From Bacteriovoracaceae bacterium (GTDB lineage Bacteria > Bdellovibrionota > Bacteriovoracia > Bacteriovoracales > Bacteriovoracaceae), in the NCBI GenBank assembly GCA_016784965.1, contig JADHTQ010000017.1, positions 1-64,000 on the forward strand: 64,000 nt of DNA, given 5' to 3'. Of this stretch, positions 17,686 to 58,627 are shown in pieces. The notes beneath the pieces are model-generated. The model was not told the DNA's origin and made no database searches. It saw only the letters and a program-made list of their open reading frames with translations. The translations under genes and the position numbers were made by a program. Position 1 is the stretch's first letter. Every line of letters starts with the position of its first letter.

Positions 17686-18438
17686 ATGTATCAAGTGAAA
17701 AGACTCAGTAAGTATAGAACCGTTGTCAACAATGTACTTAGAATGTCTCTACCTAATAGCTATCCCATTCACATGAACACTCAAGTTGACATAGAGTCCC
17801 TGCTGGAATTTAAAAAGAGCAAAAAGCTTGGCATGAATGCTATTTTAACTAAAGCAATTGCCGACACAATTGTAGACAATCCCAAATTTAAAGTTCTTGG
17901 CAGTGTTTTGCAAAAAAATATTTTGGGACAGAAATTAGTAGTATTTGATCACGTCTCCTTTTCTATTGCAATAGATACTACCTATGAAGACGAGATGGTG
18001 GCCTCTACTTATTTGCTGGAAAATGTTGATTGCAAGTCATTAGAAGAAGTTGATAAAGAGCTTACTCCTATTAACAATCTTAAGGCCTCTGAGTTACCTG
18101 TCTTTAAATTGTTAAAATTTCTGTTGCCACTGCCCTCTTGGATGCAAAGATCCCTGTTTTATTTAAACTCTATGATTCCACGAGATAAAGCTATTACATT
18201 AGGTAGTATTGGATTTTCCAACTTGGGTAAAGGAAGTATTCATTCGTTTTTCCCCCTTTCTCCCAAAACCATAATGTTTGGCATCGGAGGAACTCATCAA
18301 CGTGTAGTGCTCAAAGATGAAAAAGCAATAAATCACACATTTTTAACCATCAATATTACATTTAACCATTTTGTAGTGGATGGTAAGATCTGTAGTGAGT
18401 TTTTAACATCACTTAAACAAAGGTTGGAGGCATTTTAA
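17686..18438 (+). CDS. Stand-alone E2-type acyltransferase domain
   Basis: The 250-residue sequence looks like the catalytic domain of a 2-oxo acid dehydrogenase E2 without lipoyl or subunit-binding domains. SIGFSNLGKGSIHSFFPLS corresponds to the E2 segment before the active site, and FNHFVVDG (His228, Asp232) corresponds to the DHRxxDG motif. The substrate is unknown, but the family moves acyl groups through CoA or chloramphenicol-acetyltransferase-like chemistry. The gene ends 2 bases before the RND exporter start, so the two are co-translated. This suggests acylation of a lipid or small molecule that the exporter then handles. The ATG has AAAGGA upstream. Confidence 0.72.
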   Translation: MYQVKRLSKYRTVVNNVLRMSLPNSYPIHMNTQVDIESLLEFKKSKKLGMNAILTKAIADTIVDNPKFKVLGSVLQKNILGQKLVVFDHVSFSIAIDTTYEDEMVASTYLLENVDCKSLEEVDKELTPINNLKASELPVFKLLKFLLPLPSWMQRSLFYLNSMIPRDKAITLGSIGFSNLGKGSIHSFFPLSPKTIMFGIGGTHQRVVLKDEKAINHTFLTINITFNHFVVDGKICSEFLTSLKQRLEAF

Positions 18439-18440
18439 AA

Positions 18441-41312: not shown

Positions 41313-41972
41313 TTAATCAATTTGCATTTCAGGAATATCACCTTCAACAATAAGTGTTCCATCAGTTAGTTGTTGTATCTGCTCAACACTGACTCCGGGT
41401 GCTCTCTCAATTAAGTGAAACGCCTCATTTTTAATTTCCATAACACACAAATCGGTTACTACTTTTTTGATGCAACTAACTCCCGTTAAAGGAAGAGAGC
41501 ACTTTTTTAAGATCTTGGATTGCCCTTTTTTGCTGGCGTGTTGCATGGCCACTACAATATTTTGTGCTCCAGCAACTAGATCCATTGCTCCGCCCATTCC
41601 TTTGACAAGTTTTCCTGGGATCATAAAAGAAGCAATATTGCCGAGTTGGTCCACTTCAAACGCCCCTAAGACTGTAATATCTACATGTCCTCCCCGAATC
41701 ATGGCAAAACTTTCAGAGGATGAAAAAAATGCGGCCCCTGTATCTGCAGTAACAGTCTGTTTACCTGCATTGATCAAGTCAGCGTCAACGTCCTCTTCAG
41801 CTGGAAACTCTCCCATGCCAAGCAGACCATTTTCAGATTGGAGTACTACGTTTATCCCTTTGGGTATGTAGTTTGCTACCAGAGTTGGAATCCCAATTCC
41901 CAGATTTACATAATCTCCGTCTTTCATTTCTAGGGCAATTCTTTTTGCGATTTCTTCTCTTGTTAAGGCCAT
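41313..41972 (-). CDS. scoB: 3-Oxoacid CoA-transferase subunit B
   Basis: The beta subunit of succinyl-CoA:3-oxoacid CoA-transferase, which moves CoA from succinyl-CoA to acetoacetate or a similar acid. It has 219 residues. NLGIGIPTLVANYIPKG and LQSENGLLGMG with the catalytic Glu47 match the family. Together with scoA upstream it forms the heterodimer. The ATG has AAGAGAG upstream. Confidence 0.92.
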   Translation of the reverse strand: MALTREEIAKRIALEMKDGDYVNLGIGIPTLVANYIPKGINVVLQSENGLLGMGEFPAEEDVDADLINAGKQTVTADTGAAFFSSSESFAMIRGGHVDITVLGAFEVDQLGNIASFMIPGKLVKGMGGAMDLVAGAQNIVVAMQHASKKGQSKILKKCSLPLTGVSCIKKVVTDLCVMEIKNEAFHLIERAPGVSVEQIQQLTDGTLIVEGDIPEMQID

Positions 41973-42000
41973 ATATTTACTCTCTTAATGGGGTTTTTGG

Positions 42001-42696
42001 TTATTTAGTTGTTTTTTGTTCAATTCGTTTTTCAAAGGTTCCTTTAATCACTTTATTCACATAAATTCCAGGAGTGTGGATATAATCGGGATCTAGCTCT
42101 CCAGCAGGAACAATTTCTTCCACTTCCGCAATTGTGATTTTGCCTGCTGTTGCGATCATTGGATTAAAGTTCATAGCTGTTTTTCGATATATCAAATTCC
42201 CCATAGTATCCGCTTTCCATGCCTTTACAAAGGAGAAATCTGCTTTTAAACCTTTTTCCAAAAGGTACATCCGCCCATCAAATTCTTTGGTCTCTTTACC
42301 TTCGGCCACTGGAGTTCCATAACCTGTTGCTGTATAAAAACCTGGAATACCTGCCCCTCCGGCCCTTATTTGTTCTGCTAAAGTGCCTTGAGGTGTTAAG
42401 ATCACCTCCATTTCGCCAGAGAGAAATAATTTTTCAAATAATGCATTTTCACCGACGTATGATGCGATCATAGTCTTTATTTGTCGACTTTTTAGCCACA
42501 GGCCTAACCCAAAATCGTCTACTCCGGCATTATTTGAGATACAAGTTATACCCTTGATATCTGTTTCACTAACCTTTTTGATTAGACCTTCAGGAATTCC
42601 ACACAGTCCAAATCCCCCAACCATAATAGTCATATTGCTCTGTAAACCAGCGATGGCATCATCATAGCTTTTAATTACTTTGTTTATCTCAGACAC
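42001..42696 (-). CDS. scoA: 3-Oxoacid CoA-transferase subunit A
   Basis: The alpha subunit, 231 residues. GGFGLCGIPEGLI (27-39) and GAGIPGFYTATGYGTPVAEGK are family signatures. It starts at GTG 42696 with GGGAG upstream. It precedes scoB by 28 bases. The pair may feed acetoacetate or branched acids into the TCA cycle; the exact substrate cannot be read. Confidence 0.92.
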   Translation of the reverse strand: MSEINKVIKSYDDAIAGLQSNMTIMVGGFGLCGIPEGLIKKVSETDIKGITCISNNAGVDDFGLGLWLKSRQIKTMIASYVGENALFEKLFLSGEMEVILTPQGTLAEQIRAGGAGIPGFYTATGYGTPVAEGKETKEFDGRMYLLEKGLKADFSFVKAWKADTMGNLIYRKTAMNFNPMIATAGKITIAEVEEIVPAGELDPDYIHTPGIYVNKVIKGTFEKRIEQKTTK

Positions 42697-42795: not shown

Positions 42796-43275
42796 CTAGA
42801 TCTCAATACAGTTGGTTAGGATATCTACCTTATTGTTGAAATTAATAAGGCCTCCTTGATTTTTTGAGACTATGAGGTATCCTGAGTCACTGGTACGTCC
42901 ATTAATAGTACAACTTGTAGCTGTCCTGAGCATAATTCTTAAAATTCGTCCATGAGACATAAGGTCAATCAAATCTTGTTCAATCATAATGTTTCGATAG
43001 ACAGTCCCTTTATCATCTATAATGCTTAAGTTGCGAACGGCAACTTCATATTGATAGTCCATAAAACGCATGTACCTAGGACTCATTCTTATCTCTAGTC
43101 CGATAGATTTTCCAAAACATTTCATAATGGTCGTCTCATATTGAGTATCATTCCAAATACTTGGATACTCAGCTCGTTGAGCTTCACAAACATGATTTGA
43201 ATTTGCCTGAAGTTGAGTAAGTGATATCATAGAGAGGAAAATACACAGTACAATTGGTCTTATTTTATTCATCAA
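42796..43275 (-). CDS. Secreted protein of unknown function
   Basis: A 159-residue protein with a signal peptide (core about 8-20, cut near LQANSNHVC) and four further cysteine positions (MKCFG, SCTING, LTNCIEI). No family recognised. It is in a single-gene unit between the olefin cluster and scoAB. Confidence 0.65.
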   Translation of the reverse strand: MMNKIRPIVLCIFLSMISLTQLQANSNHVCEAQRAEYPSIWNDTQYETTIMKCFGKSIGLEIRMSPRYMRFMDYQYEVAVRNLSIIDDKGTVYRNIMIEQDLIDLMSHGRILRIMLRTATSCTINGRTSDSGYLIVSKNQGGLINFNNKVDILTNCIEI

Positions 43276-43321: not shown

Positions 43322-44968
43322 TCATACTTTGTCAAACAATTTGCGCAGCATTAGGCGGTCGATTTTAATGTTATGCCTAATATCTACGGGAAAATTTTTA
43401 TGATAGAAGTAATGCTTTATATCTTGGGTATGAGTGTACTTAGACGCCAAAATGCTCAACTCTTTTTCTAGTTGAGCTTTTTCATCGCCATGGGGCATTT
43501 TGTGATCAATCATCTCGATAACAACACCTACCTTATCAGTGCTTATTCCAATTAAAGCAGACCTTGCAACCTTGGGGTGTTGATTAAAAATTGCCTCACA
43601 TTGTACACTACAAAGCATTGCAGTATCGGTTTGTACTCGATGTGTTGCTCTTCCACAAAACCAAAGCTTACCACTTTCATCAAAATATCCCAGGTCTCCC
43701 ATGCGATGCCATATAACTATCCCATTTTCTGTCTGCTCATAAATTTTGGCCAGTTTGGTCTTTTCTGGCATTTTAAAATACTCTGGAGTGACGACATTGC
43801 CCGAAACAATAATTTCGCCAACCTCTCCCACGGATAGCTTGTCAATATCATCAAAGCAATCGATCTGTTTGTCAGACACTCTTATAATCAAGGCTTCGAT
43901 GGTAGGTACCGGTACTCCAATACAGGTGCCTTTGCCTTGCTCAGTATCTTCTTTTGTGTTTTGTAAAATATATTCACCAGAAATGTTTGACACCGGCAAA
44001 GATTCTGTAGCGCCATAGGGTGTGTAGGTGGTGCCATTTGGCAAAATCGTTTCAAATATCTGATGAAGATCAGTCGCTACTGGAGCTCCAAACATAACCA
44101 AATACTTCACACTGGGTAAAGTTACTTGGTTCTGTTTACAATAGTTTCCGACCACTTTCCAGATAGCAGGAGATCCAGCAATAAAAGTGCAGCTTTGATC
44201 TATGATATTTTGTACGATTCGCTGTGGCTTAACATTTGCGGGTTTGGCAGGATTCATATCGGGAATACAACTTTTCATCCCCATAGTTACAGTAAACAGG
44301 GAAAAAAGAGGAAAGCCTGGCAGATCAATCTCTGAGTCATTAAGGGAAAATAGCTCTTGCAAGATATCAATCTGAGCATTAAAAATTTTATGGGTATAAA
44401 CTACACCTTTTGGTACCCCAGTGCCACCAGAGGTAAATAAGATCGCCGCCACATCACCTTCTTCAACCTCATGACAAATATGTTGCGACTCACCTGTTTT
44501 AAAACCTGCAATTAGTGCTTTTAAACTATGAGTGTTTGTTAGTGGCAACTTACAGGTTGAAACAAAAATCTTGATAGATTTAAATTGTTCTTTAAAAAAA
44601 CTCTTTATAATGTGAACAATCGGTTCAGCAATTAAAATGTCCGGTTCTACCTGTGAAATGGCATTTAAAAGATTCTTTCGCCCCATCCCCGGATCGATTA
44701 AAACGGGAATAACCCCCAACTTAAACAGAGCAAAAACAATGGCCGTAAAATCTAGGCAAGGTCTAATAAAAAGTAGAGTCTTGTGCCCTTTTTTCATCCC
44801 AAGACTGGAAAATTTTTGTGCATAATGATTGGATTTTGCCTCTAATTGCTCAAAGGTTAGATGAAGGTATTGATATTTTAAAGTAAATTTGCTCTTTTGG
44901 GGAAAGCTGATTGCTTGTTTATGGGGAGTCTTTTTGGCAATGCTAGTTAGCCTGTTGGCTATATTCAT
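43322..44968 (-). CDS. oleC: OleC, beta-lactone synthetase (AMP-binding)
   Basis: OleC activates the beta-hydroxy acid made in head-to-head hydrocarbon synthesis with ATP and closes it to a beta-lactone. The 548-residue protein is an ANL-superfamily adenylating enzyme: P-loop LFTSGGTGVPKG (177-188), the ATES motif in TPYGATESLP, and GDLGYFDESGKLWFCGRATHRVQ, which closely resembles OleC proteins. The start is an ATG that overlaps the oleB stop as ATGA. Other ANL ligases (acyl-CoA synthetases) share the fold, but the order oleA-oleB-oleC makes OleC the best call. Confidence 0.87.
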   Translation of the reverse strand: MNIANRLTSIAKKTPHKQAISFPQKSKFTLKYQYLHLTFEQLEAKSNHYAQKFSSLGMKKGHKTLLFIRPCLDFTAIVFALFKLGVIPVLIDPGMGRKNLLNAISQVEPDILIAEPIVHIIKSFFKEQFKSIKIFVSTCKLPLTNTHSLKALIAGFKTGESQHICHEVEEGDVAAILFTSGGTGVPKGVVYTHKIFNAQIDILQELFSLNDSEIDLPGFPLFSLFTVTMGMKSCIPDMNPAKPANVKPQRIVQNIIDQSCTFIAGSPAIWKVVGNYCKQNQVTLPSVKYLVMFGAPVATDLHQIFETILPNGTTYTPYGATESLPVSNISGEYILQNTKEDTEQGKGTCIGVPVPTIEALIIRVSDKQIDCFDDIDKLSVGEVGEIIVSGNVVTPEYFKMPEKTKLAKIYEQTENGIVIWHRMGDLGYFDESGKLWFCGRATHRVQTDTAMLCSVQCEAIFNQHPKVARSALIGISTDKVGVVIEMIDHKMPHGDEKAQLEKELSILASKYTHTQDIKHYFYHKNFPVDIRHNIKIDRLMLRKLFDKV

Positions 44969-45870
44969 GACTCACCTTCAGCACCTAGCAAAAAGGGTCT
45001 CACCGCACTAAGCGCTTCTTCTAATTCATCTTCTAATAGATAATGACCGGCATTTTCTAAAAGTTTAAAGGCGGCATCTGGATAAATTTGCTGCCACTTT
45101 TTAAAGTAGTGTAAATCAAAGCAAAAATCCCGAGCACCCCACAACAAAAACTTGGGACAAGTCAGAGTCTGGAGTTTATTCTCTATATCAAGTAGTGTTT
45201 TAAAACTGGGATGAGTCGATGACAAAGGTATGTCGGTTACAAATTTGGCGGTAGCTATTCTATTTTTATAATTATTATAAGGTAGTAAAAACCCCTCTTT
45301 TATAATTGAAGACAGCCCCTTTGTTGTTGTCATAAAGGTAGCAGGATATGCAAAGCCATTAAAGATCCTAATAAACCATTCACCAATAACTGGAGTTTTG
45401 CAAATATTGATACGCTTTGGAATTTTTGTGTCTGTAAATGCAGCAGTATTTAAAATAGTAATTTTTTCAATTTTTTCAGGGTGCCTAACGGCATAGCCAA
45501 AACCAATTGCCCCTCCCCAGTCGTGAACAATCAAAGATACCGACTTTAATTTTAACTTATTATCTATTAAGTCTTCTAAGTTATCGATGTGTTGCTTTAG
45601 GGTATAATTATAGTTTTGTGGTTTATCCGATAATCCACACCCCATATGGTCTGGAGCAATAACTCTAAAATGCTCTGACAAATCTTTTATCAAATTGCGA
45701 TAAAAAAAAGACCAGGTGGGGTTTCCATGAAGCATGACTAGATTTTTATCATTGCAACGGGTTTTATGATGATCTACAAAATGCATTTTGTGTGGGCCAT
45801 CCAGCGGTAGAAAATAGTTTGAACAAAATGGATAGTGCTCTTTTAAATGTGGGGGAATTGTCACTACCAT
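44965..45870 (-). CDS. oleB: OleB, beta-lactone decarboxylase (alpha/beta hydrolase)
   Basis: OleB converts the beta-lactone to the olefin with loss of CO2. The 301-residue protein is a haloalkane-dehalogenase-type hydrolase: HGNPTWSF (oxyanion loop), nucleophile Asp117 in VHDWGGAIG, an acid in GARDFCFD and catalytic His276 in NAGHYLLED. An Asp nucleophile rather than Ser is what distinguishes OleB from esterases. It overlaps oleA by 7 bases and oleC by 4. Confidence 0.88.
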   Translation of the reverse strand: MVVTIPPHLKEHYPFCSNYFLPLDGPHKMHFVDHHKTRCNDKNLVMLHGNPTWSFFYRNLIKDLSEHFRVIAPDHMGCGLSDKPQNYNYTLKQHIDNLEDLIDNKLKLKSVSLIVHDWGGAIGFGYAVRHPEKIEKITILNTAAFTDTKIPKRINICKTPVIGEWFIRIFNGFAYPATFMTTTKGLSSIIKEGFLLPYNNYKNRIATAKFVTDIPLSSTHPSFKTLLDIENKLQTLTCPKFLLWGARDFCFDLHYFKKWQQIYPDAAFKLLENAGHYLLEDELEEALSAVRPFLLGAEGES

Positions 45871-46895
45871 TTTACCCCCAAAATGGTTGAGGTCAGCCCT
45901 GAGCCAATGCCAAGCATAGCAACATGTTCGCCGCGCTTTAGGTCTTGAGTCTGGTCGAGCTTGGCCAAGGTTATCGGTAAAGCTGAAGAGCCAGTGTTAC
46001 CCAGAGTTGGATAAGTAGCAAAAGTATTTAATTTGTGTAATTTCAAAGATTTTAAAGTCATCTTTTCATGGGCCACCCCAACTTGATGGCCAATAACCCA
46101 GTCCACATTATCATTGGTCCACTCCAAGTTCTTTTTGGCAAGCTCCCAAGTATCTTGGGCCAGGGCCACGCCCTCTTTCATCAGCTCTTCGGAATCAGTT
46201 TCCATCATTAATGAATTGGGGTTACCATCTCCCTGGCATAAGGTGTTGGCACTTGATCTGGTCATTGTAGCGCCTCCAAGCAAGGTGTGTCCCTCAGGTG
46301 CCAATGACTTATGACAAAGAATAAAGGCCACAGCAGCGGAACCAATCGTGAGGTTGGCAACATATTTTTTTATATTTTTGCGGGTTAAGTCCTTTGAGTT
46401 GTTTAAAAAACCGATGGTTTCTTGTAACAAAGGCCCACCATTTTCACCTGCAACTACCATCCCACATTGTATCGTCCCTTGCTCTATCATGTTGGCAATT
46501 ACCACAAAGGAGCTCATCACTCCCAGGCAAGCATTGGACAAATCAAAAATCATACACTTGGGATCAAGCCCTAAGTTATGGTGAACGACAGAGGCCGTCG
46601 ATGGCTCTAAAAAATCGCGACAAACTGAAGCATGGATTAAAACATCAATATTTTTTTTGTTAATCTTCGAGCGCTCAAAAGCTTCTAAGGCGGCATTAGT
46701 AGAAAGTTCAGATGGTCTTGTACCCTGACTCCAAAAGCGCCTCTGCTTTATTCCAGTCATTAACTCAAGTCTGCCCTTGGGCAGTCGAAGACGATCATAT
46801 ACACTTTGCAGCTTTTGTTCAATTTCAGCAGATGTTAAGATCTCTTGGGGAAGGTGATAACCGTATGACTCAATACGAACCTGTTCAAAACGCAT
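45864..46895 (-). CDS. oleA: OleA, head-to-head acyl condensing enzyme
   Basis: OleA, a thiolase-fold enzyme, joins two fatty acyl thioesters to make a beta-keto acid. With start ATG 46895 (GGAAGGGG upstream) it has 343 residues. Active-site Cys123 (SNACLG), His270 (WVIGHQVGV) and Asn300 (LGNTGS) match the family. Glu97 in RDFLEPSTA is 26 residues before the Cys, the same spacing as Glu117 and Cys143 in Xanthomonas OleA, where Glu117 is needed for the condensation. The His-Asn spacing of 30 also matches 285-315. This separates it from FabH. It is preceded by a CrtI-like gene that overlaps slightly upstream of this start. Confidence 0.9.
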   Translation of the reverse strand: MRFEQVRIESYGYHLPQEILTSAEIEQKLQSVYDRLRLPKGRLELMTGIKQRRFWSQGTRPSELSTNAALEAFERSKINKKNIDVLIHASVCRDFLEPSTASVVHHNLGLDPKCMIFDLSNACLGVMSSFVVIANMIEQGTIQCGMVVAGENGGPLLQETIGFLNNSKDLTRKNIKKYVANLTIGSAAVAFILCHKSLAPEGHTLLGGATMTRSSANTLCQGDGNPNSLMMETDSEELMKEGVALAQDTWELAKKNLEWTNDNVDWVIGHQVGVAHEKMTLKSLKLHKLNTFATYPTLGNTGSSALPITLAKLDQTQDLKRGEHVAMLGIGSGLTSTILGVKW

Positions 46896-46899
46896 ATCC

Positions 46900-48291
46900 C
46901 TACCCCTTCCAATCACGTGTTAAAATATGCATATTACTAATTGTAATGCCACTAAGTAGTGTCCCGACAATGCCAATCAACCCCTGATCTGTACCACAGA
47001 GGAGCAAATTTTCAATACCGGTCAATCCGTCTGGGAGCTTGTCAGGACTTCCATACACTGCACCTGCCATGTGACCTGTAAATCTTTTTATAGTCTTTGG
47101 AGTAAAGACATCTTGAAACTTAAGCTCTCCATTCAATGAAGGCATTACTGCTTTTAAAGTCTCTAGGGAGTGCTCAACAACTTTTTGCTTTTGCGCTTTA
47201 TATTCGGTACTTTTAAAACTATCCCATAGATCAAAATTAGCAAGACTAGTAAGTCGAATAACCCCCTCGTCATATTCACAATCAGAAAAATTATTCGGTA
47301 GACAGATTGAAGTACTGGTCTCATCGATTGCGGTGGTGGGTTTTTGGTAATTATATCTGTCTTGATTGCTGTAATAAATTATAGTTGAGTCGATATCACA
47401 TTGAGCTGGTTTTTTATCAAAGATAAAAATTGTCTCGATGGGACTAATCCTGCCTACTGCGGGAGTTGTAACCTGCTGTGACTCTACCAAGCTCATCGTT
47501 TCAGGGTACCCAATAGATGAAATAACGTAATCGGCTTCTATCATCTCCCCATTGTTTAAAAGGGCCCCTTGAACCTTGCTATTTTTTGTAACAATTTTTT
47601 CAACCTTGTGGCGATACCTTAATTCCCCACCTAAGGCATTAAACTTATCCAAAAGGATGTCAATTATAGTTCTAACTCCCCCCATGGGTCTTGAAAACCC
47701 TTCGAGATATACACTTTGAAAGAGGATAATAAAAGAATTGACATCTAAGTCGTGTTCTGTGGAACTTCCATAAAAAAGTATGGGATAAAAAATCATATCC
47801 TCTAACATTTTATTTTTAATATACTGGCCTACAAATTGCCTTGCCGATTTAAAGTCTTTTGAGGGTAGTAAGTCTTTATGAATATTAATATTTTTAATAA
47901 GTTCTAAAAAACCATCAACTTCTTCGGGGAAATTTTTGGCAACTTGGGAAATCAAAAGCTCAATATCGTTAGAAAAATTGATCTCCAAATCTCTAAATTG
48001 AACCTTAGACGACTTTTGCTCTTTTAGTTGTAAGCTATCATAACGAATGCGCAACTGCTTTAGAATTTTACTTAACGGGTGCCCTTTAGTTCCCTTTTTC
48101 ACAAAGTTGGTCAAAGCGTGAAGACCAACATCAAACTTCCGACTACCTCTTTGATAAAAAGAGTTAAGTCCCCCGGGCAAAGAGTGCATTTCTGCAATGC
48201 AAACTGTTTTGCCAAACATCGCAAGGCGAATACCTGCCGCCATGCCAGACATTCCGGCACCTATGATTAAAACATCATATTTGGTGGTCAT
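46900..48291 (-). CDS. CrtI-like FAD-dependent oxidoreductase
   Basis: A 463-residue flavoprotein of the phytoene desaturase/carotenoid isomerase type. A Rossmann motif GAGMSGMAAGIRLA (12-25) and the following GGLNSFYQRGSRKFDVGLHAL match the family. The C-terminus has GAVYGSPDKLPDGLTGIENLLLCGTDQGLIGIVG, the usual FAD-binding end. Such enzymes saturate or desaturate conjugated chains, or isomerise them. Lying inside an ole operon that lacks the NADP reductase OleD, it may modify the chain or replace that step, but which one is unclear. Gap of 23 bases after the ACP gene. Confidence 0.83.
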   Translation of the reverse strand: MTTKYDVLIIGAGMSGMAAGIRLAMFGKTVCIAEMHSLPGGLNSFYQRGSRKFDVGLHALTNFVKKGTKGHPLSKILKQLRIRYDSLQLKEQKSSKVQFRDLEINFSNDIELLISQVAKNFPEEVDGFLELIKNINIHKDLLPSKDFKSARQFVGQYIKNKMLEDMIFYPILFYGSSTEHDLDVNSFIILFQSVYLEGFSRPMGGVRTIIDILLDKFNALGGELRYRHKVEKIVTKNSKVQGALLNNGEMIEADYVISSIGYPETMSLVESQQVTTPAVGRISPIETIFIFDKKPAQCDIDSTIIYYSNQDRYNYQKPTTAIDETSTSICLPNNFSDCEYDEGVIRLTSLANFDLWDSFKSTEYKAQKQKVVEHSLETLKAVMPSLNGELKFQDVFTPKTIKRFTGHMAGAVYGSPDKLPDGLTGIENLLLCGTDQGLIGIVGTLLSGITISNMHILTRDWKG

Positions 48292-48314
48292 TAAAGTTGC
48301 CGCTTATGTTAATT

Positions 48315-48581
48315 TTATTGGCAAAATTTTGGAGAAAGGTACCTAACACAACTCTCTAGCGTCGCAAGCTGCGGATAGTCTTCTGAGGGCACTTCCACCT
48401 TATACCTTTTTTTAAGTTCCATAACAATGTCTAAAAAGTCCATTGAATCTAAATCGAGCTGGTCTCGCAAGGAGGCCCCATCATTGATCTCAGATAGGTC
48501 CTCGTCAAGAGCAATATCTGAAATAATATCAACAACTGCTTTTCTCACATCTACTACTTCTGTATTCATTTCCATATTCAC
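48315..48581 (-). CDS. Acyl carrier protein
   Basis: An 88-residue ACP. The phosphopantetheine site is DLDSMDFL with Ser46, in the recognition helix of the family; the protein is acidic (ALDEDLSE). It is encoded between the FabF-type ketosynthase and the CrtI-like gene, so it is a dedicated carrier of this pathway rather than the housekeeping AcpP. The start at 48581 has two more in-frame ATG codons (M3, M5) close by, so the exact start is uncertain. Confidence 0.87.
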   Translation of the reverse strand: MNMEMNTEVVDVRKAVVDIISDIALDEDLSEINDGASLRDQLDLDSMDFLDIVMELKKRYKVEVPSEDYPQLATLESCVRYLSPKFCQ

Positions 48582-48606
48582 TTACTCCTTACAACTTAAG
48601 GTGAAT

Positions 48607-49851
48607 TTATAACTTTTTTACAATTAATGTCGAGTTGATACCTAACATGCCAAAAGAGTTATTTAAAATGGTTTTTACCTCTTTTTGCAAATTATCCTCA
48701 GCTACCAAGTTTTTTAAATTACACTTTGGATCTATGTTTTCAATTCCATGACATGAATGAACTGTACTGTCAACAAAACTTGGTAAATTACCAGCAAGTT
48801 CTAAGGCCCCCGCGGCCCCCATAGTATGACCGATAAACCCCTTGGTACAATTTACATGAGTGTTGTCTGAAGCTCCAAAGACTGTACTGATCGCCTCACA
48901 CTCTTGTATATCCCCTTGTGGGGTGCCGGTTGCGTGCATATTAACAATATCAAGATCTTCAGCAGTCATGCCCGCCTTTTCCATCGCTTTTTGCATACAT
49001 TCCATCTGCCTTGCAGGGTTGGGCAGTACAAAATCGGTGGCATCTGAATTTATATGGTAACCCACTATTTCGCCATAAATCTTTGCATTGCGTGCCTTGG
49101 CAGTTGATAGTCTCTCAAGTGCATAAATGCAACCACCTTCAGATACCACCACTCCATTTCTATCTTTATCAAGAGGTCTTGTGGCCTTGGTGGGATCATC
49201 GTGGGAGCCAAGTGCTCCCTGGGCAGCAAAGGCCGCAAATATACCAAAAGTACCAGGGCTCTCTGAAACCCCTCCGGCCAGTGCCAAGTCGACTTCCTTA
49301 AGCTTCAGCATCTGTACACCTTGAATAATTCCAATATTTCCAGCAGCACACGCTGCTCCCATTGTATAATGGGGACCGGTTATTTTGAGATTTAAAGTTA
49401 CTTCTCCAGCTGGAGAGTTGGCCACAGTTCTTGGGTTGTGGTGATGAGACCAAAATGAAGCATTTTTATTATGCTCGTTGTACAAATCATGAATTTCATT
49501 TTCAGTACTAACATTTCCATGCTCAGTAATACCGATATATACCCCAACTTTAGAGCGATCAACTTCTTCTATATTAATCTTAGCATCACCTAATGCCTCA
49601 TTGGCACAATAGATCGAAATCGATCCGGCTCTGGTTCCCCTTCTTCTGTGTTTCTTTTTTAAATACTTGAATTCATCAAAGTCCAAAAGTCCGGTAGTAA
49701 CTTTGCCCATATGTCGAATTTCGATGTGCTCAAGTCCAGATTTTCTTTCTAACAGTGACTTTCTAAATTCTTCCAAGTTATTACCATTTGGAGCACTCAG
49801 CCCAACTCCGGTAATAACAATGCGCTCATCATCGCTATAATTGCTGTTCAT
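48607..49851 (-). CDS. fabF: Beta-ketoacyl-ACP synthase, FabF type
   Basis: A KAS II-type ketosynthase of 414 residues with start ATG 49851, preceded by AGGAGAG. The catalytic triad is Cys168 (GAACAAGN), His306 (NMHATGTPQGD) and His342 (FIGHTMGAAG), with Lys337. It elongates or condenses acyl-ACP. In this operon it may extend the carrier-bound chain used by OleA. It is more diverged than a housekeeping FabF in places (HHHNPRTVAN), so it may have special substrate choice. Confidence 0.88.
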   Translation of the reverse strand: MNSNYSDDERIVITGVGLSAPNGNNLEEFRKSLLERKSGLEHIEIRHMGKVTTGLLDFDEFKYLKKKHRRRGTRAGSISIYCANEALGDAKINIEEVDRSKVGVYIGITEHGNVSTENEIHDLYNEHNKNASFWSHHHNPRTVANSPAGEVTLNLKITGPHYTMGAACAAGNIGIIQGVQMLKLKEVDLALAGGVSESPGTFGIFAAFAAQGALGSHDDPTKATRPLDKDRNGVVVSEGGCIYALERLSTAKARNAKIYGEIVGYHINSDATDFVLPNPARQMECMQKAMEKAGMTAEDLDIVNMHATGTPQGDIQECEAISTVFGASDNTHVNCTKGFIGHTMGAAGALELAGNLPSFVDSTVHSCHGIENIDPKCNLKNLVAEDNLQKEVKTILNNSFGMLGINSTLIVKKL

Positions 49852-50551
49852 TATATCTCTCCTGTAATTTGGATAATCCACCTTTTAGTTTATGTGCAAT
49901 ATTGGTTTTAATATTTGAGGTCATATTTGCAATTGGAGTTGCTCCTCCAATTAATAGATCCAGTACTACAGGAAGCCTTCCAATGATCTGGGTGTATTGC
50001 TTTGAAGCTTGTAGCCCACCCAAAGCAATTACAAAACTCATAAGAGTTTGGGAAAAATTGCAGGTTAAAAGAATCGACTTCAACCTGGTGATGCGCTTAG
50101 GAGTACGATCTGCTTCATGCTCTAATGTATAGTTTAAACTTCTGGTGATCATCAGTTTAAATTCCTCAACGATGTGTTGCTCTCTTTTTCTAATAATTGC
50201 AGAAACAATACTCAAACTATCTTTGCGGGCCCTGTGGAGCTTACAACGTCTTTTTCTACAATCAATTGATTCAATCGCCAAGTAGTGCGTTAGGTTTTTT
50301 AAAGAAACAGATGTGGCACTTTGCGACAATCCCAAGGCAGACTCAATTTCTTCAGAACTTAAGGCCTCTTCAGAAAGAACCAAAAGACCAAAGATGGCAC
50401 CATCTACACGCTTTAGCCCCACATTGTGAAAAAAGCTTTCAAAATGGGGCAACTCATCCATTAATGGACTTTCAAAAAGTGAAGTAGATCTATCTAAGCT
50501 CAAATTCTCATATCTCAAAAATAAAATATTGCTAATATCTATAATGCCCAA
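49835..50551 (-). CDS. GbsR/MarR-type transcriptional regulator
   Basis: A 238-residue DNA-binding protein. A winged helix-turn-helix of the GbsR type is seen at about 50-95 (VDGAIFGLLVLSEEALSSEEIESALGLSQSATSVSLKNL). The C-terminal half is helical and could sense a ligand. Being the first gene of the ole operon, overlapping the ketosynthase, it is probably its regulator. No operator was identified. Confidence 0.82.
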   Translation of the reverse strand: MGIIDISNILFLRYENLSLDRSTSLFESPLMDELPHFESFFHNVGLKRVDGAIFGLLVLSEEALSSEEIESALGLSQSATSVSLKNLTHYLAIESIDCRKRRCKLHRARKDSLSIVSAIIRKREQHIVEEFKLMITRSLNYTLEHEADRTPKRITRLKSILLTCNFSQTLMSFVIALGGLQASKQYTQIIGRLPVVLDLLIGGATPIANMTSNIKTNIAHKLKGGLSKLQERYNEQQL

Positions 50552-51002: not shown

Positions 51003-51743
51003 TTATTTTACTAGCTTTGTTAAAAAATCGATGGGCAGTGGGAAAAAAGTTGTACTTCTACCTTCCCCGGTCGAAATTTCTTTCATAGTATCTAGATATC
51101 TTAACACTATTGAATTTTTTTGAGTGTCGAGTATTTTTGCTGCCTCGGCCAGTTTTACAGCAGCTTCCATCTCCCCTTGTGCGGAAATAATTTTGGCCCT
51201 TTTATCTCTTTCTGCTTCTGCTTGCTTGGCCATTGCTCGTTGCATTTCAATTGGCAGATCAATGGCCTTTACCTCTACAGCGGAGACTTTTATGCCCCAT
51301 GGTTCTGTCTGATCATCTAGAATAGTTTGCAACTTGTGGTTGATTTTGTCGCGCATAGATAAAATTTCATCGAGTTCAAATTGGCCAATTACAGACCTTA
51401 GAGTAGTTTGAGAAATCTGCCCAGTGGCCTGCAGAAAGTCTTCTACGGCAATGATTGATTTTTCTGGATTTTCTACGCGAAAATAAACAACCCCATTAAC
51501 TTTTAAAGTTACGTTGTCGCGGGTGATGATATCTTGGGAGGGAATGTCCATAGTTACAGTTCTAAGGTCTACCCTTCTCATTTTTTCAATACCAGGTATC
51601 AAAATGATAAGACCTGGGCCTCTGACACTAGAAAAGCGACCTAGAAAAAACACTACCGCCCTTTCGTATTCATTTAAAATTTTAAATGTATTAAATAATA
51701 AAACTACAAAAATGATAATAAAGGGAACTAAAACTGGAAACAT
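51003..51743 (-). CDS. Stomatin/SPFH-domain protein (slipin)
   Basis: A 246-residue slipin with a single N-terminal membrane hairpin (about 1-20) and an SPFH domain: [42 protein letters not shown], and a helical coiled-coil later ([23 protein letters not shown]). I start it at ATG 51743 with GGAGGG seven bases away. It pairs with the downstream-strand NfeD-type protease gene, as in many bacteria and archaea, where the protease cleaves the stomatin C-terminus. Confidence 0.92.
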
Positions 51744-51763
51744 ATTCAACCCTCCAAAAAAAA

Positions 51764-53077
51764 TTAAACAATTAACATCAAATCTTTTACGTCATGCTCT
51801 TTAACTGTCACCATATCGTCGACACTATATTTATTGGTAGATCTAGCATTCCATATTTCACCTGAAATTTTTACTTGGTATCGATATAGTCCTGCCTGGT
51901 GAGAATCTACCTCACAAACCACAATGCCTTGCTTTCCTACTAGAGAAAAAAACTGAACATGTTTTTTATTCATTATATTTCGCACTAAAAAGAAGGTCAC
52001 AAAAGCTAAAAAAAGTGCAATAGCAGATACTGAAGAAAATATGACACTGTTGCTGAGTGAGATGTAGGCGTTATCAGTTCTAAATAAAAACAAAGAACCA
52101 AATATTAAGGCGGCAATACCCGCCAACGAAATAATGCCAAAGCTGGTGATATAAATCTCCAAGATAAACATAACAAATGACAAGATGATGAGACCAAATG
52201 CCCCAAAATTTAGAGGTAGTACTTGAAAACCAATACCTGCCAAAATTAGACAAATGGTGCCAATGCTGCCTGCTATAAAGCCACCTGGGGCCTGCAGTTC
52301 TAAATAAATTAAAGCTGCGCCAATTAGTAGAAGCACATAGGCCATGCTGGGGTTGGCAAAGATGTTTAAAAGCCTCTGACCTAAATCCATACTAAATTCG
52401 ATGATCTGCTTTGACTTAAGTATCAATTTTAGAGTCGTTCCTTTGACTGTCACTTTTTTGTTATTGATCTTATCCAAAAGATCTGCTTTGTTATCAACTA
52501 TCCCGTCTATCAAGTTTTTCTTTTTTGCCTCTTTTGCCTTAAATGATGAGGCCTTCTCCACCATCTGACCAAACAGGGCCCCATTTCTGCCGCGGGCCTC
52601 AGATAGACTTTGCACAAGTGCCACTAAATCGTTTATGGCCTTGTTTTTCATGTCCACTTGCTTGATATCCCCAGATAATTCGATCGGGGTTGCCGCACCT
52701 ATATTGGTGCCTTCTGACATGAATAAAAGATGGGCACCACTGGCGATAATGGCCCCGGCAGAGGTAGCAGAAGCGCCCTCTGGTGTAACCCACACCACAG
52801 TTGGCATGTCACTGCTGCCAAAAAGGGTCAAAATACTTTTTGTCGTTGACACCAGCCCACCAGGTGTGTTCATTTTTATTAACACTAAGTTGGCCCCATC
52901 TACTTTGGCCTGTTTATAACCCGATGATAGATAATTCAAAGTAGCAGGATTTATAGATGAGTTAATAGTCATTTGCAAAATGCTATTAATCTCATAATTT
53001 TTAATAGGTGCCGATATAACTGTCATAAAAGGCAGAAGTATCATTGCAATAGTGATCAATTTGGTATTAAATTTCAT
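51764..53077 (-). CDS. NfeD-family membrane serine protease
   Basis: A 437-residue protein with a signal peptide (start at 53077, [15 protein letters not shown]...). A ClpP-like protease domain has NTPGGLVST, the Ser nucleophile in [14 protein letters not shown] and a Lys in [17 protein letters not shown]. Several membrane spans at about 250-380 follow, and an OB-fold NfeD domain closes it ([11 protein letters not shown]... [10 protein letters not shown]). It lies 20 bases upstream of the slipin gene and is co-transcribed with it. The weak ribosome site makes the start tentative. Confidence 0.9.
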
Positions 53078-53106
53078 GGTACTATTGTTATTTGTTGGAG
53101 ACCGTT

Positions 53107-54423
53107 TTGCAACACCCATGTTATAAAATTTTGTTATGCGATATATTAAATCCCCTAAGCGACACTAAGTCGGAGCTTGTAAAAGGTGGTGCCATCGCAC
53201 TTAGAAGAGTAAAAAACAATCATTTCTATAAAATTGAAAGTATTGGCCATGCCGAGAAAATTCTACAACTGTATAAGTTAAAGCGCTCTGTCACCATATA
53301 CAATTTTCAAAAATATTTAGCAATGCCCTCTTTTTTAGATCTGCACTTTCACTGGGTGCAAGATGATGTAACTTTAATGCCCAAAGACTCACTGCTTTCT
53401 TGGCTATCAAAGTATACTTGGCCCAATGAGGCAAAATTTAAAAAGAAAACTTATTCAAAACAAAAGGCAAAACAATTTTGTAACAAATTACTGCAAATGG
53501 GTACTTTGGGTGGTGGATGTTTTGCATCTATTCATGAACATACGGTAGATCATGCCCTAGAGCAATTTCACGGTGACTTTGTTGTAGGCAACGTTTTAAT
53601 GACTATTAACTCTCCCGATTATTTAACCCAATCGAGTCAAAATGCTGTCGAAATTGTTCGCAGTAAATCTAAAAAGTATGGCAAAAAATATGCAATCACT
53701 CCGAGGTTTGCACCGACTGTCGACCCACACACCATGAAAGAAACTGCAAAGATTGCAGCAAAAAGCGGTTGTTTTATTCAAAGTCACTTGTGTGAAACAC
53801 AAGAGGAGATAGAATACGTCTTGTCCATCTACAATAAGTTTAAGGGATTTGAAAGTATTAATAGTTATACAGAGATCTACAATGCTTGTGGACTGTTGGG
53901 ACCAAAAACTATCATGGCCCATGGAATTTACTTAAACTCTTCAGAGCTTAAAACCTTGAAAAAAACGAATACGGCAATTGCTCACTGCCCGACCTCTAAT
54001 GCTCCCACAAAAGATTTAGGCCTTGGATCGGGGCTGTTTGATTTTAAAAAAATAGAAAAAGCAGGCATTTGCTGGGGCCTTGGCTCCGATATTGGTGGTG
54101 GCCCCTATTTGTCCATGTTTGATGTAATGAGATCTTTTGTGCTACAAAATAAAAAAATTGGAACCAAAGTAAGCTGCTCTAAAGCTTTATACCGGGCCAC
54201 TTTAAAAAACGCACAGATCCTAGGTCTTGATAAAACTTGTGGTAATTTATCTCCCAATAAGCACGCCAATATCATTATGATTGAGTCTCCTCACACTAGC
54301 AGTAGCGATACAGCAGAAAGTGTACTAGAGCGAGTGCTGCTTAAAAATATAAAATCTCGGCATAACTTTTCTAAGCTAGTCAAAAAAACTATTTATCGCG
54401 GTAAATGTTGGGAATTTGATTAG
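53107..54423 (+). CDS. guaD: Guanine deaminase-like amidohydrolase
   Basis: A 438-residue amidohydrolase. The metal-binding HFH (LDLHFHWVQ), SHLCETQEEIEYV, AHGIYL, HCPTSN and GLGSDIGGG motifs match guanine deaminase, which turns guanine to xanthine; related amidohydrolases act on S-adenosylhomocysteine or triazines, so the substrate is not proven. I prefer the TTG at 53107 because GGAG lies six bases upstream; earlier in-frame TTGs lack a site. It diverges from the NfeD gene with only about 30 bases between starts. Confidence 0.83.
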   Translation: MQHPCYKILLCDILNPLSDTKSELVKGGAIALRRVKNNHFYKIESIGHAEKILQLYKLKRSVTIYNFQKYLAMPSFLDLHFHWVQDDVTLMPKDSLLSWLSKYTWPNEAKFKKKTYSKQKAKQFCNKLLQMGTLGGGCFASIHEHTVDHALEQFHGDFVVGNVLMTINSPDYLTQSSQNAVEIVRSKSKKYGKKYAITPRFAPTVDPHTMKETAKIAAKSGCFIQSHLCETQEEIEYVLSIYNKFKGFESINSYTEIYNACGLLGPKTIMAHGIYLNSSELKTLKKTNTAIAHCPTSNAPTKDLGLGSGLFDFKKIEKAGICWGLGSDIGGGPYLSMFDVMRSFVLQNKKIGTKVSCSKALYRATLKNAQILGLDKTCGNLSPNKHANIIMIESPHTSSSDTAESVLERVLLKNIKSRHNFSKLVKKTIYRGKCWEFD

Positions 54424-55013: not shown

Positions 55014-56630
55014 TTACCAGTTAAAGTGAAACTCCTCAGGTGCAGTAACTTCTAGTGATAGTGTTAGAGCTTTGCTTTGTCTACTACCGAGCAGAAGGTC
55101 CCAAAAAACCCAACTGGGGGTTCCTGGCAGTGGTTTAAAGCCTTCTGTGGAACCTTTTGTTTCAACTTTTAGCTCTTTTAATTCTGATCTTGGAATCTGA
55201 CCTAGAACTTTAATTTTCTTACTATGCTTGGAGAAATTTTCTAAATTAAAAGACAGCACTCTTTTATAAGTTTTGGTCTTATCTATTAGACCTCCAATCA
55301 TGCTATTGTTGGTTACTTTTTGCTTTTGCCCAGTTTTAACGACAATACTATGGTCAAGACCAGCATTAATTGAAAAGGTGTCTCCCTTTCTGACCTGAGA
55401 TACTTGGATTTTTTGCACAAATTTGCCATCGTAGAAAACTGATGCAATTCCTGGTGCTAGGGCCCATTGTAAGTTATTTATTATTTTTCCTTTTTTATAG
55501 ACGTGAGGGTATTGGTTGGGAACAACTTCTAGGTGCTCCTCATAGGGCAACTTATTTTTATAAATAAAAATCATACTGTTGACCATACCGTCAGCAATAG
55601 ACTGCCGGCCCACAATAATAAAATTTTTGGCCAGACCAGATGCTGTCTGGGCATCATCTAGAGTTAAACTGGATGTATTTAATGAAGCCGCAACATCCTG
55701 GACACTTTCGATGTGGGTTTGTACTTTTTTTACTTCCTGCCAATTAAGTGTATAAGGTGTAATTGTGGGTGCTTTAATTTTTAGCCGGGTTTGCAGGTTA
55801 TTTAAAATCAAGTTTACATTATCCCAATCCTCCCCTGAGCGCTGGGTAATGAGTGCATGTTGCTCCAGGGTCGCAGTTTTTTCCGAGCTATTTAAGCGAA
55901 TATTATAAAATGGTCGCCAACCAACATTTTTTACTAAGTATTGTAACCCAACGGTAACGCTCCCACGTACTGTCACTGACAAATCGACTACAACATCAAT
56001 ATTTTTATAGTTCGATATAGAGCGCAGCTGTTTAATTTTTGCGTTAACAAACCTTAGTTGTTTAGTAATTTTTAAATATCTTTTATAAGCCACCTTCCAA
56101 GGACCAAACATCTTCTTTCTGCGATCTTGCATAAATTTTAAAAATCCTGAAAACTTGCTCTTGGACCATTTTTTTGTGTGCAAGTTCAAGGTAAATGATT
56201 CGTGATAATGTTTAACAATTTCGCGCAAATTAGAGTGCTCTTTTATGAGGCCTTGAACCTCTTTGTGCAATTTTTTTAAGCTTAAGTCTAATTTGGCCTT
56301 TTGCTTTAAATAAACTTTAAGCTCCCCATTAAAAGACTTGGCATTAAAGTTTGAAACCGTTCTAACACCTAAAATCTCGCATTTGTCTTTATTAGATAAG
56401 GTCACCTTCAGAGTATCCTTGTCTAAAATGGGGGTCAGTCCAGAAAAGACAACAGATTGGCCACCTAAATTCAGGGATACTTTCTTGGAGCGCTTGATGT
56501 ATGCACGATCTTTAAATAGAGTCACCTGCTCAATGCTGGAGCGATTTTTGGCCTTAGCTGAAACACTAAACGCTTGTTTGGTGCTAATTATTAGTAGACA
56601 AAAAATAATATATCTTAAATTTGTTATCAT
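55014..56630 (-). CDS. Secreted DUF4139 protein (shorter paralogue)
   Basis: A 538-residue protein with a signal peptide (core 8-19, cut near AFSVSA). The N-terminus has the DUF4140 opening (IEQVTLFKDRAYIKRSKKVSL), a coiled-coil insert at about 100-215, and a C-terminal DUF4139 barrel (VGLQYLVKNVGWRPFYNIRL, LITQRSGEDWDNVNLILNN). Known members are called MuiA-like, of unknown function at the cell envelope. Its start overlaps the stop of the longer paralogue as TAATG, so the pair is co-translated. Confidence 0.88.
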   Translation of the reverse strand: MITNLRYIIFCLLIISTKQAFSVSAKAKNRSSIEQVTLFKDRAYIKRSKKVSLNLGGQSVVFSGLTPILDKDTLKVTLSNKDKCEILGVRTVSNFNAKSFNGELKVYLKQKAKLDLSLKKLHKEVQGLIKEHSNLREIVKHYHESFTLNLHTKKWSKSKFSGFLKFMQDRRKKMFGPWKVAYKRYLKITKQLRFVNAKIKQLRSISNYKNIDVVVDLSVTVRGSVTVGLQYLVKNVGWRPFYNIRLNSSEKTATLEQHALITQRSGEDWDNVNLILNNLQTRLKIKAPTITPYTLNWQEVKKVQTHIESVQDVAASLNTSSLTLDDAQTASGLAKNFIIVGRQSIADGMVNSMIFIYKNKLPYEEHLEVVPNQYPHVYKKGKIINNLQWALAPGIASVFYDGKFVQKIQVSQVRKGDTFSINAGLDHSIVVKTGQKQKVTNNSMIGGLIDKTKTYKRVLSFNLENFSKHSKKIKVLGQIPRSELKELKVETKGSTEGFKPLPGTPSWVFWDLLLGSRQSKALTLSLEVTAPEEFHFNW

Positions 56631-58627
56631 TAGTTAAACTCCGATACTATGAAGTTGTCAGGATGAGTTACTTTATAATTAAACACAATCTCTTTTTTTG
56701 CCCGTGGAAGAATTTTAAATTGCCAAGATAAAATACTATTTTTGTGCTCCAGCTCAGGGGGTACTCTTTGCAAAAGCTTCACTTTGATTTTATCGATTGG
56801 GGTTTGGGGATAGTTATCTTTTACATCTATTTCAATGGGGAAATTGTGATGGTTTACAATTTCAATTTTGACCTCTACATTCGTGGAATGTTCTTTAAAA
56901 AGGGTTCCTTTATCTTCTGCTTTTTTTGTAACAATGCGGTTGACCTCAATATTTTTATCCACACCTAGATCTACTATAAAAAAACTATCTTCAGCGATAG
57001 TTGGAATTTTCGTTTTGCTCATCAAGTTGCCATCCATAAAAATTTGAGCATTACCGGCCAAAATTGGTGCCGAGGTGGAATTTATCATATGGGCCTTAAG
57101 ATAGACGTTTTTATCCTTTTTGGGGATTACAAAATAGCGCAATTTTCCTCGCAGATTTTGTGACTGAATAGGTACTTTTAAGGCCGGTTTTCCACTACCG
57201 AGGTGTACCTTAAACAAAGAAGTCATCTCTAGTAATCTTCCTTTGGCCAAAACAGCAGGTAGGGACTTGTCTCGATAGTGAGTTTTTCTAGGCCTTTTTA
57301 AATTCATAAATTGCCGGGGTAAAACATCACGGCCTTTAGTATTTTGAGTTAAGTTTTCAATATTATTTTGTAATGAGTACAAGTCATTAAAAATACTCCC
57401 CAGAGGTGCCAAAGGAAAGAGGTTGTAAGGCGAAACACTTCGCCTCTTTGAACGCCTTGGTCTGCTTTTTTGATTGGAAACATAAGGCTTTGAAGACATT
57501 GCCGCACCCATTTTAAGATCTTGGTATGGTGGCTCCTCAGAAAGAGTATCGGCCATATCCTCCACCATATCATCTTGCATGAAACTATCTCTACTTAACC
57601 CTTTTGATTTTGCTGACCTTTTGTATCTTCTGCTCTCTTTTTTGACCATTGGTGCCGCACGCCGCCTACTGCTAAAATTCCACCTAGTAAGCTTTGGCAA
57701 AAATAATGCAACCGGATCTAGGCTGGAAAAAGTGGCCTCCACATCTTGCCAATTCTCACCGGTATTTTGTTGTAAAATCCCAGAAGTTACTAGTCTAATG
57801 TCTGCTTCACCTTTTTGATAATCGAGGCCAGCACGAACAGCATATGATGGATGCCAAAATGCAGAATTGATCATATAACTCAAATTTATAGTCTTTTTAG
57901 GACGCGACAATTTTAATTGATTGGTTACCTGCACGTATACATGGTTTGTCCACTTTTGTCCGTTTAAAGAGGTGTATGGTTTTAACTCATGTAAGAGCGT
58001 GGAGATTTTATCATCAATATTTTTTATCTGCTCTTGCAACTTTTGTCTGTTGGCCAAAATACTCAAGACCTTCTGTCTTATGGTAGTCATGGCCTTGCCG
58101 AGTTGATCGGGGGGTGCCAAAAACCCAACGTATTTTTGCCCATCTTTGTTAAAAGGGGCACTAAATTTCAAATTTTGAACAAAGTATAATTCTTCATCAA
58201 AAAACTTATCTGTCTGTAAAAGTTCCAACTTTAAAGCATATAGCTCCTCTAGCTTCTCAATGTTATTTTCTGCCTCGGGAGTCATACCAGTATTTTCAAA
58301 CTGTTCTTCAATGATAATTTGAGATATGGCCACCTGGTCACTTTTATCTGTCTCTACAATTAAAGAAGTTTTATCAAGATTGCTTGGTAGTGATGCAAAA
58401 AGTAGCCAGGTTGAGTGTCCAGCTTTTTTATTGAGTTTCACAGTAGCACTTCTAGTTATCAGGGCGCGATCCGAGTAAACTGTCACTTTGTTAATTTTAT
58501 TCTTTACCCGTACAGACTCCTTTTGATATTCGGCCTCCATGGCCCAACAAAACTCATTAATTGGGAGAGTAAAACAGAAAAAGGCCACAACAATGTACAA
58601 AAAACTATCAAAATAAATCTTGATCAT
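56630..58627 (-). CDS. Secreted DUF4139 protein (longer paralogue)
   Basis: A 665-residue relative of the previous protein with a signal peptide (core about 10-24, cut near CWAMEA). It has INKVTVYSDRALITRSATVKL, an insert with coiled-coil, LSYMINSAFWHPSYAVRAGL and ILQQNTGENWQDVEATFSS. A Lys/Arg/Ser-rich linker at about 325-450 (including two basic SRPRRSKRR-like stretches) is unique to this copy. It is the first gene of the pair and has a noncoding upstream region of about 200 bases. Confidence 0.88.
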   Translation of the reverse strand: MIKIYFDSFLYIVVAFFCFTLPINEFCWAMEAEYQKESVRVKNKINKVTVYSDRALITRSATVKLNKKAGHSTWLLFASLPSNLDKTSLIVETDKSDQVAISQIIIEEQFENTGMTPEAENNIEKLEELYALKLELLQTDKFFDEELYFVQNLKFSAPFNKDGQKYVGFLAPPDQLGKAMTTIRQKVLSILANRQKLQEQIKNIDDKISTLLHELKPYTSLNGQKWTNHVYVQVTNQLKLSRPKKTINLSYMINSAFWHPSYAVRAGLDYQKGEADIRLVTSGILQQNTGENWQDVEATFSSLDPVALFLPKLTRWNFSSRRRAAPMVKKESRRYKRSAKSKGLSRDSFMQDDMVEDMADTLSEEPPYQDLKMGAAMSSKPYVSNQKSRPRRSKRRSVSPYNLFPLAPLGSIFNDLYSLQNNIENLTQNTKGRDVLPRQFMNLKRPRKTHYRDKSLPAVLAKGRLLEMTSLFKVHLGSGKPALKVPIQSQNLRGKLRYFVIPKKDKNVYLKAHMINSTSAPILAGNAQIFMDGNLMSKTKIPTIAEDSFFIVDLGVDKNIEVNRIVTKKAEDKGTLFKEHSTNVEVKIEIVNHHNFPIEIDVKDNYPQTPIDKIKVKLLQRVPPELEHKNSILSWQFKILPRAKKEIVFNYKVTHPDNFIVSEFN

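Follow-up and report, generated by a model that had tools for sequence, protein, structure and literature searches.

In the head-to-head route to bacterial olefins, the enzymes OleA, OleB, OleC and OleD carry out a chemistry that is well established (PMC7064751, PMC6463001). In Shewanella and Geobacter bemidjiensis, which make the polyunsaturated hydrocarbon hentriacontanonaene (C31:9), the OleABCD enzymes are genetically tied to the lipid synthase Pfa, and coupling of Ole proteins to a dedicated synthase is thus already known (PMC3098273, PMC4882568, PMC6463001). Desulfotalea psychrophila makes C31:8 and C31:9 without polyketide synthase (PKS)-type genes for polyunsaturated fatty acids, and its fatty-acid gene clusters contain phytoene-dehydrogenase-like genes; on this basis a 2009 report proposed an anaerobic type II fatty-acid-synthase route to polyunsaturated hydrocarbons (PMC2649909). 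Here we describe an operon from a Bacteriovoracaceae bacterium (positions 1 to 64,000 of contig JADHTQ010000017.1, assembly GCA_016784965.1; this 64,000-nucleotide stretch is hereafter the window) in which genes for OleA, OleB and OleC follow genes for a β-ketoacyl-acyl carrier protein synthase (KAS), an acyl carrier protein (ACP) and a CrtI-like flavoprotein (CrtI1). Together with parts found elsewhere in the genome, these genes probably specify a dedicated type II fatty-acid synthase whose unsaturated chains enter a full OleABCD pathway, leading to long polyunsaturated olefins.

The operon comprises seven genes on the minus strand, running from 50551 down to 43322 in the order regulator-KAS-ACP-CrtI1-OleA-OleB-OleC, and with the likely start codons adjacent genes overlap or lie no more than 31 bp apart. 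This layout is as given in an earlier note on the DNA, which was made from the window's sequence alone. The features, including one small gene downstream, are as follows.

49835..50551, minus strand: first gene of the operon; regulator with a winged helix-turn-helix, weakly matched as MarR/ArsR-like; its true start may be internal to the open reading frame (ORF).
48607..49851, minus strand: KAS, dedicated FabF-type β-ketoacyl-ACP synthase; catalytic Cys-His-His-Lys, gate loop altered to GMLG.
48315..48575, minus strand: dedicated ACP; PF00550, E 4.6e-9; phosphopantetheine site DSMD; a GTG at 48581 is an alternative start.
46900..48291, minus strand: CrtI1, CrtI/CRTISO-like flavoprotein binding flavin adenine dinucleotide (FAD); TIGR02730, 113 bits (cut-off 587); predicted fold.
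45864..46895, minus strand: OleA thiolase; probable ATG start at 46895, ORF opening at 46916; NF006720.
44965..45870, minus strand: OleB β-lactone decarboxylase, α/β-hydrolase; haloalkane-dehalogenase-type matches, at the conserved site between OleA and OleC.
43322..44968, minus strand: OleC β-lactone synthetase, acyl-AMP ligase family; NF006754.
42796..43275, minus strand: small signal-peptide-like protein, 46 bp past OleC, at the site that OleD takes in relatives; outside the conserved module and matching no family in the library scans.

The identities of the Ole proteins follow from curated models, structural matches and position. OleA scores 415 bits against NF006720 (cut-off 285), has the Xanthomonas campestris OleA as its best match in the PDB (3s21, E 1.7e-64) and keeps the catalytic residues, namely the active Cys, the Glu117-type Glu, the His and the Asn. 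Likewise, OleC scores 604 bits against NF006754 (cut-off 478) and 497 and 492 bits against two olefin β-lactone synthetase models, values that lie under the strict cut-offs of both. OleB, a haloalkane-dehalogenase-type α/β-hydrolase with an HDWGG nucleophile motif, is assigned by family and position, no OleB-specific model having been found in the libraries used. The arrangement resembles the OleABCD systems of Xanthomonas and Shewanella in the order OleA-OleB-OleC, in the retained catalytic residues and in the presence of OleD in the genome, but it differs from them in that OleD is unlinked and that a dedicated KAS, an ACP, two CrtI-like proteins and extra copies of FabG, FabZ and FabI are added.

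The KAS is FabF-like (TIGR03150, 293 bits, below the cut-off of 494), retains Cys168, His306, Lys337 and His342, and is 58–72% identical to homologues from other genera and phyla; in 22 such homologues from several phyla the gate loop reads GMLG (GMVG once) where the matched FabF structure has GFGG, a change that suggests, without proving, an unusual chain. The ACP carries the DSM serine motif. The regulator belongs to a family in which all 14 of 14 members match MarR_2, weakly in the case of the window copy (E 0.0065), and its homologues lie upstream of KAS in relatives and in Planctomycetota. CrtI1 shares its fold and FAD motif with the carotenoid flavoproteins CrtI, CRTISO and CrtD, and the nearest fold to its predicted structure (pLDDT 89) is the γ-carotene desaturase 4rep, with CrtI (4dgk) third. 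Unlike those enzymes, it lies far below the curated carotenoid cut-offs (TIGR02730, 113 against 587 bits; TIGR02734, 75 against 238; TIGR02733, 73 against 550), and in a phylogenetic tree it falls in a clade distinct from that of another CrtI-like enzyme, CrtI2, both clades extending across the several phyla named below.

The 64-kb window holds no OleD, and the earlier note, which had remarked on this absence, was right about the locus; the homologue elsewhere in the genome that it had named as the first part of a refuting sign does exist. When the source genome (G000) is searched with a profile of relatives' OleD, a protein on another contig (C87:43939-44913, or 43939-44934 with the longer limits) scores 471 bits (E 1.9e-141), the next-best protein reaching 96 bits. 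It carries the motifs TGAGGFLG and YAKSK, is 52% identical to an operon-borne OleD, and has as its top curated models the two for OleD (NF042423, 361 bits; NF042422, 321 bits; next family, 133), although it falls below their strict cut-off of 580. The statement that OleD is missing therefore applies to the locus only, and the impression of an OleD-less pathway is corrected. The rest of the module likewise lay beyond what could be seen from the window, although in many relatives it sits beside the operon: CrtI2 is at C87:27207-28637, on the same contig as OleD, FabI (C21:75674-76471) adjoins FabZ (C21:76523-76942) on a third contig, and a dedicated FabG is at C21:89252-89992. The full pathway set is present in this genome but scattered. 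The junctions at the operon and at OleD are both contig-internal, although a misjoin is conceivable; the finding of one strong copy of each remote part argues against a contaminating second genome.

The gene order is preserved among relatives of the source organism. In a comparison set of 59 genomes, consisting of the source genome and relatives of the same phylum (37 in Bacteriovoracaceae), OleA is found at E < 1e-30 in 30, and 28 of these are Bacteriovoracaceae, the family of Bacteriovorax and Halobacteriovorax. Over 20 genera of this family keep the order KAS-ACP-CrtI1-OleA-OleB-OleC, with proteins about 50% identical, a conservation far beyond chance, and the regulator frequently comes first. 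An OleD of about 330 residues comes after OleC in most relatives, or one to five genes off in a few. In many of them CrtI2 and then homologues of FabG-FabZ-FabI are found, often close to the ole operon, and other genera, among them G003, G019 and G025, also have the pathway partly dispersed. CrtI2 occurs in 29 of the 37 family genomes. OleA is present in 28 of these, and the remaining one (G033) has fragmented contigs that bear KAS-ACP-CrtI1 and OleB-OleC-OleD; the eight genomes without CrtI2 lack OleA as well, and a high-scoring OleD accompanies CrtI2 in all 29. The operon is also carried by an isolate of Halobacteriovorax marinus (L115), a species for which a cell assay has shown OleA activity (PMC7064751).

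The association extends well outside this phylum. The window OleA alone, used as a query against the named genomes, gave no matches, and a CrtI1 profile run against them gave 566 candidate loci, the best 80 of which come from Bdellovibrionota, Smithella and Syntrophaceae, Opitutae, Planctomycetota, Chloroflexi and Nitrospinaceae. Among these 80, KAS lies directly before ACP-CrtI1 or CrtI1 in 69 of the 72 with enough upstream sequence, OleA is present in 61, and nine, one of them planctomycete, join KAS, ACP, CrtI1, CrtI2, FabZ, FabI and OleA-D. In Smithella, Opitutae and Planctomycetota the module lies alongside ole genes, and in several planctomycetes a single stretch contains the regulator, KAS, ACP, CrtI1, CrtI2, FabZ and FabI together with ole genes. 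Across 392 planctomycete genomes, OleC is found in 96 of the 98 with CrtI1 as against 50 of the 294 without it (Fisher p 5e-51, a value that ignores relatedness). The suggestion in the earlier note that ACP, KAS and a CrtI-like enzyme are dedicated partners of OleABC is thus borne out by an association conserved across phyla.

As in the Pfa-Ole systems, a dedicated lipid synthase would be tied to OleABCD, but here its parts are separate type II proteins. PfaA exceeds its cut-off in none of the 59 genomes, and supply of the chains by a Pfa synthase is ruled out for the source genome and its relatives. The best score against the PfaA model in the source genome is 348 bits (cut-off 1010), given by the ketosynthase (KS)-containing part of a PKS-like protein; the region concerned (G000:C125:12000-25000; L072, L073) encodes two large proteins, of 2217 and 1872 residues, that resemble polyketide and nonribosomal peptide synthetases and include AMP-binding and KS parts; that of the KS part is the only PfaA-like signal in that genome. 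With the clusters of D. psychrophila and Kuenenia stuttgartiensis, the module shares KAS, ACP, FabG, FabZ and phytoene-dehydrogenase-like genes, and the likeness to anammox clusters raised in the earlier note has a basis in the 2009 report; the differences are that radical S-adenosylmethionine (SAM) genes are missing here and that the relevant passages of the report draw no link to ole genes (PMC2649909). Whereas a ladderane-type (anammox) cluster would have radical SAM enzymes beside KAS, ACP and a phytoene-desaturase-like gene, no radical SAM family is found among the operon genes and the nearest neighbours scanned, which agrees with the earlier note.

A working model can be drawn from these parts. 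The private ACP would carry the growing chain and the KAS would elongate it, with the dedicated FabG reducing, FabZ dehydrating and FabI reducing again, and CrtI1 and CrtI2 would act on the chain as it grows, inserting double bonds or rearranging them, all in place of a Pfa-type synthase. By analogy with their families, OleA would then condense two acyl chains head to head, OleD would reduce the resulting keto acid, OleC would close the β-lactone and OleB would decarboxylate it to an internal olefin. The product is probably a long-chain polyunsaturated hydrocarbon, perhaps like the C31:8 and C31:9 of Desulfotalea. That the module makes unsaturated acyl chains for OleA is the simplest reading; the transfer of acyl-ACP from the private synthase to OleA, the role of the CrtI proteins in making the chain polyunsaturated and the chain length of the product are all predictions. 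More broadly, KAS-ACP-CrtI1-CrtI2-FabG-FabZ-FabI could quite possibly represent a dissociated polyunsaturated acyl synthase, independent of both Pfa and oxygen, previously undemonstrated, present in several phyla and usually coupled to OleABCD for the production of polyunsaturated hydrocarbons.

Several observations weigh against the working model. The KAS/CrtI1/CrtI2 module occurs without OleC in Chloroflexi, in one Nitrospinaceae genome and in a few others, and is therefore not always tied to olefins. The scattering of the pathway in the window genome weakens the case for co-regulation in the source organism, the likeness to Desulfotalea derives from published gene descriptions rather than from sequence comparison with CrtI1 or CrtI2, and no lipid data were found for any member of the Bacteriovoracaceae. 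Furthermore, enzymes of the CrtI family can also saturate or isomerise. A variant of the favoured reading takes this last point further, in that CrtI1 and CrtI2 would be CRTISO-like isomerases or saturases, the double bonds being made by FabZ and spared by FabI, with the flavoproteins setting their position or geometry. The best curated match of CrtI1 is indeed a carotenoid isomerase (TIGR02730), albeit far below cut-off, and Pfa synthases offer a general precedent, as their double bonds come from dehydratase and isomerase action and not from desaturases. The nearest solved folds, however, are carotenoid desaturases, although fold alone does not settle the reaction, and we regard the variant as possible but somewhat doubtful.

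It is also conceivable that OleA uses ordinary acyl chains while the KAS-ACP-CrtI module either serves to make some separate lipid or alters chain length only, in which case the olefin would have saturated or monounsaturated chains. Plain OleABCD, with neither CrtI2 nor the module, occurs in two genomes of a different family in this phylum, and the 50 planctomycete genomes with OleC and no CrtI1 speak for this possibility and against the favoured reading; within Bacteriovoracaceae, however, the module and the ole genes are either both there or both missing, and as a rule they form a single operon in which OleA comes straight after CrtI1, so that ordinary chains seem to us unlikely. A truly OleD-less pathway ending in a ketone or β-lactone would be consistent with the window, but it is rejected on finding OleD on C87, in the same genome, and must be considered very improbable; the β-lactone that the earlier note had entertained is an unlikely end product because OleB is present and conserved. 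Scarcely any credence attaches to the idea that CrtI1 is a carotenoid pathway gene lying among ole genes by chance: it has the CrtI-family fold, but all carotenoid family cut-offs are far above its scores and it adjoins KAS and ACP across phyla, and a carotenoid product is thereby disfavoured. To return to a dedicated synthase feeding OleABCD, the novelty appears to lie in the fact that the module is linked to OleABCD directly, widely and at the level of the operon, and in the definition of this module as KAS, ACP, CrtI1, CrtI2, FabG, FabZ and FabI; an incomplete search of the open literature found no report joining a KAS-ACP-CrtI module to ole genes.

The significance of such a link would lie in two questions. 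The synthesis of polyunsaturated chains by bacteria in the absence of both oxygen and the Pfa megasynthase has awaited explanation at least since C31:8 and C31:9 were reported from Desulfotalea in 2009 (PMC2649909), and the phytoene-desaturase-like enzymes of anammox bacteria are still unassigned as to reaction (PMC2649909, PMC4790861), those of Kuenenia having failed to yield lycopene (PMC4790861). With the module tied to a well-understood hydrocarbon pathway in cultivable predators such as H. marinus, the question becomes testable. If correct, the proposed pathway would account for the making of C31:8 and C31:9 by bacteria that lack pfa genes, and the enzymes suspected of building ladderanes would gain relatives in organisms that can be cultured. 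A close ladderane link by way of hydrazine-synthase-positive planctomycetes was considered and rejected for one such genome (G395), whose CrtI-like gene is only distant (26% identical to CrtI1). Another planctomycete (G066, locus L125) has three HZS_alpha-domain matches, true CrtI1 and CrtI2, two KAS and an OleA-like gene, with no OleC, and is a possible bridge to anammox-type lipid clusters.

That locus belongs to a set of eight (L125, L127, L133, L139, L140, L143, L166 and L187, from Chloroflexi, a Nitrospinaceae and a planctomycete) in which CrtI1-CrtI2 occurs in a genome without OleC. KAS is present in all except L187, most have FabG-FabZ-FabI, and an OleA-like gene is visible at some loci and not at others; a ketone or a fatty acid may be what these loci produce. 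In the window itself, the small secreted protein after OleC is followed by two CoA-transferase subunits (41313-42696), an arrangement with no counterpart among the families of OleC-adjacent genes in relatives, and a pair of SPFH/Band 7 and NfeD proteins lies upstream of the operon (51003-53119); several relatives have similar proteins, of clusters c14 and c15, likewise upstream. Farther away, a short stand-alone protein resembling 2-oxoacid-dehydrogenase acyltransferases directly precedes an MMPL/Patched-like transporter (17686-20723), and two DUF4139/DUF4140 proteins form a tandem pair (55014-58627).

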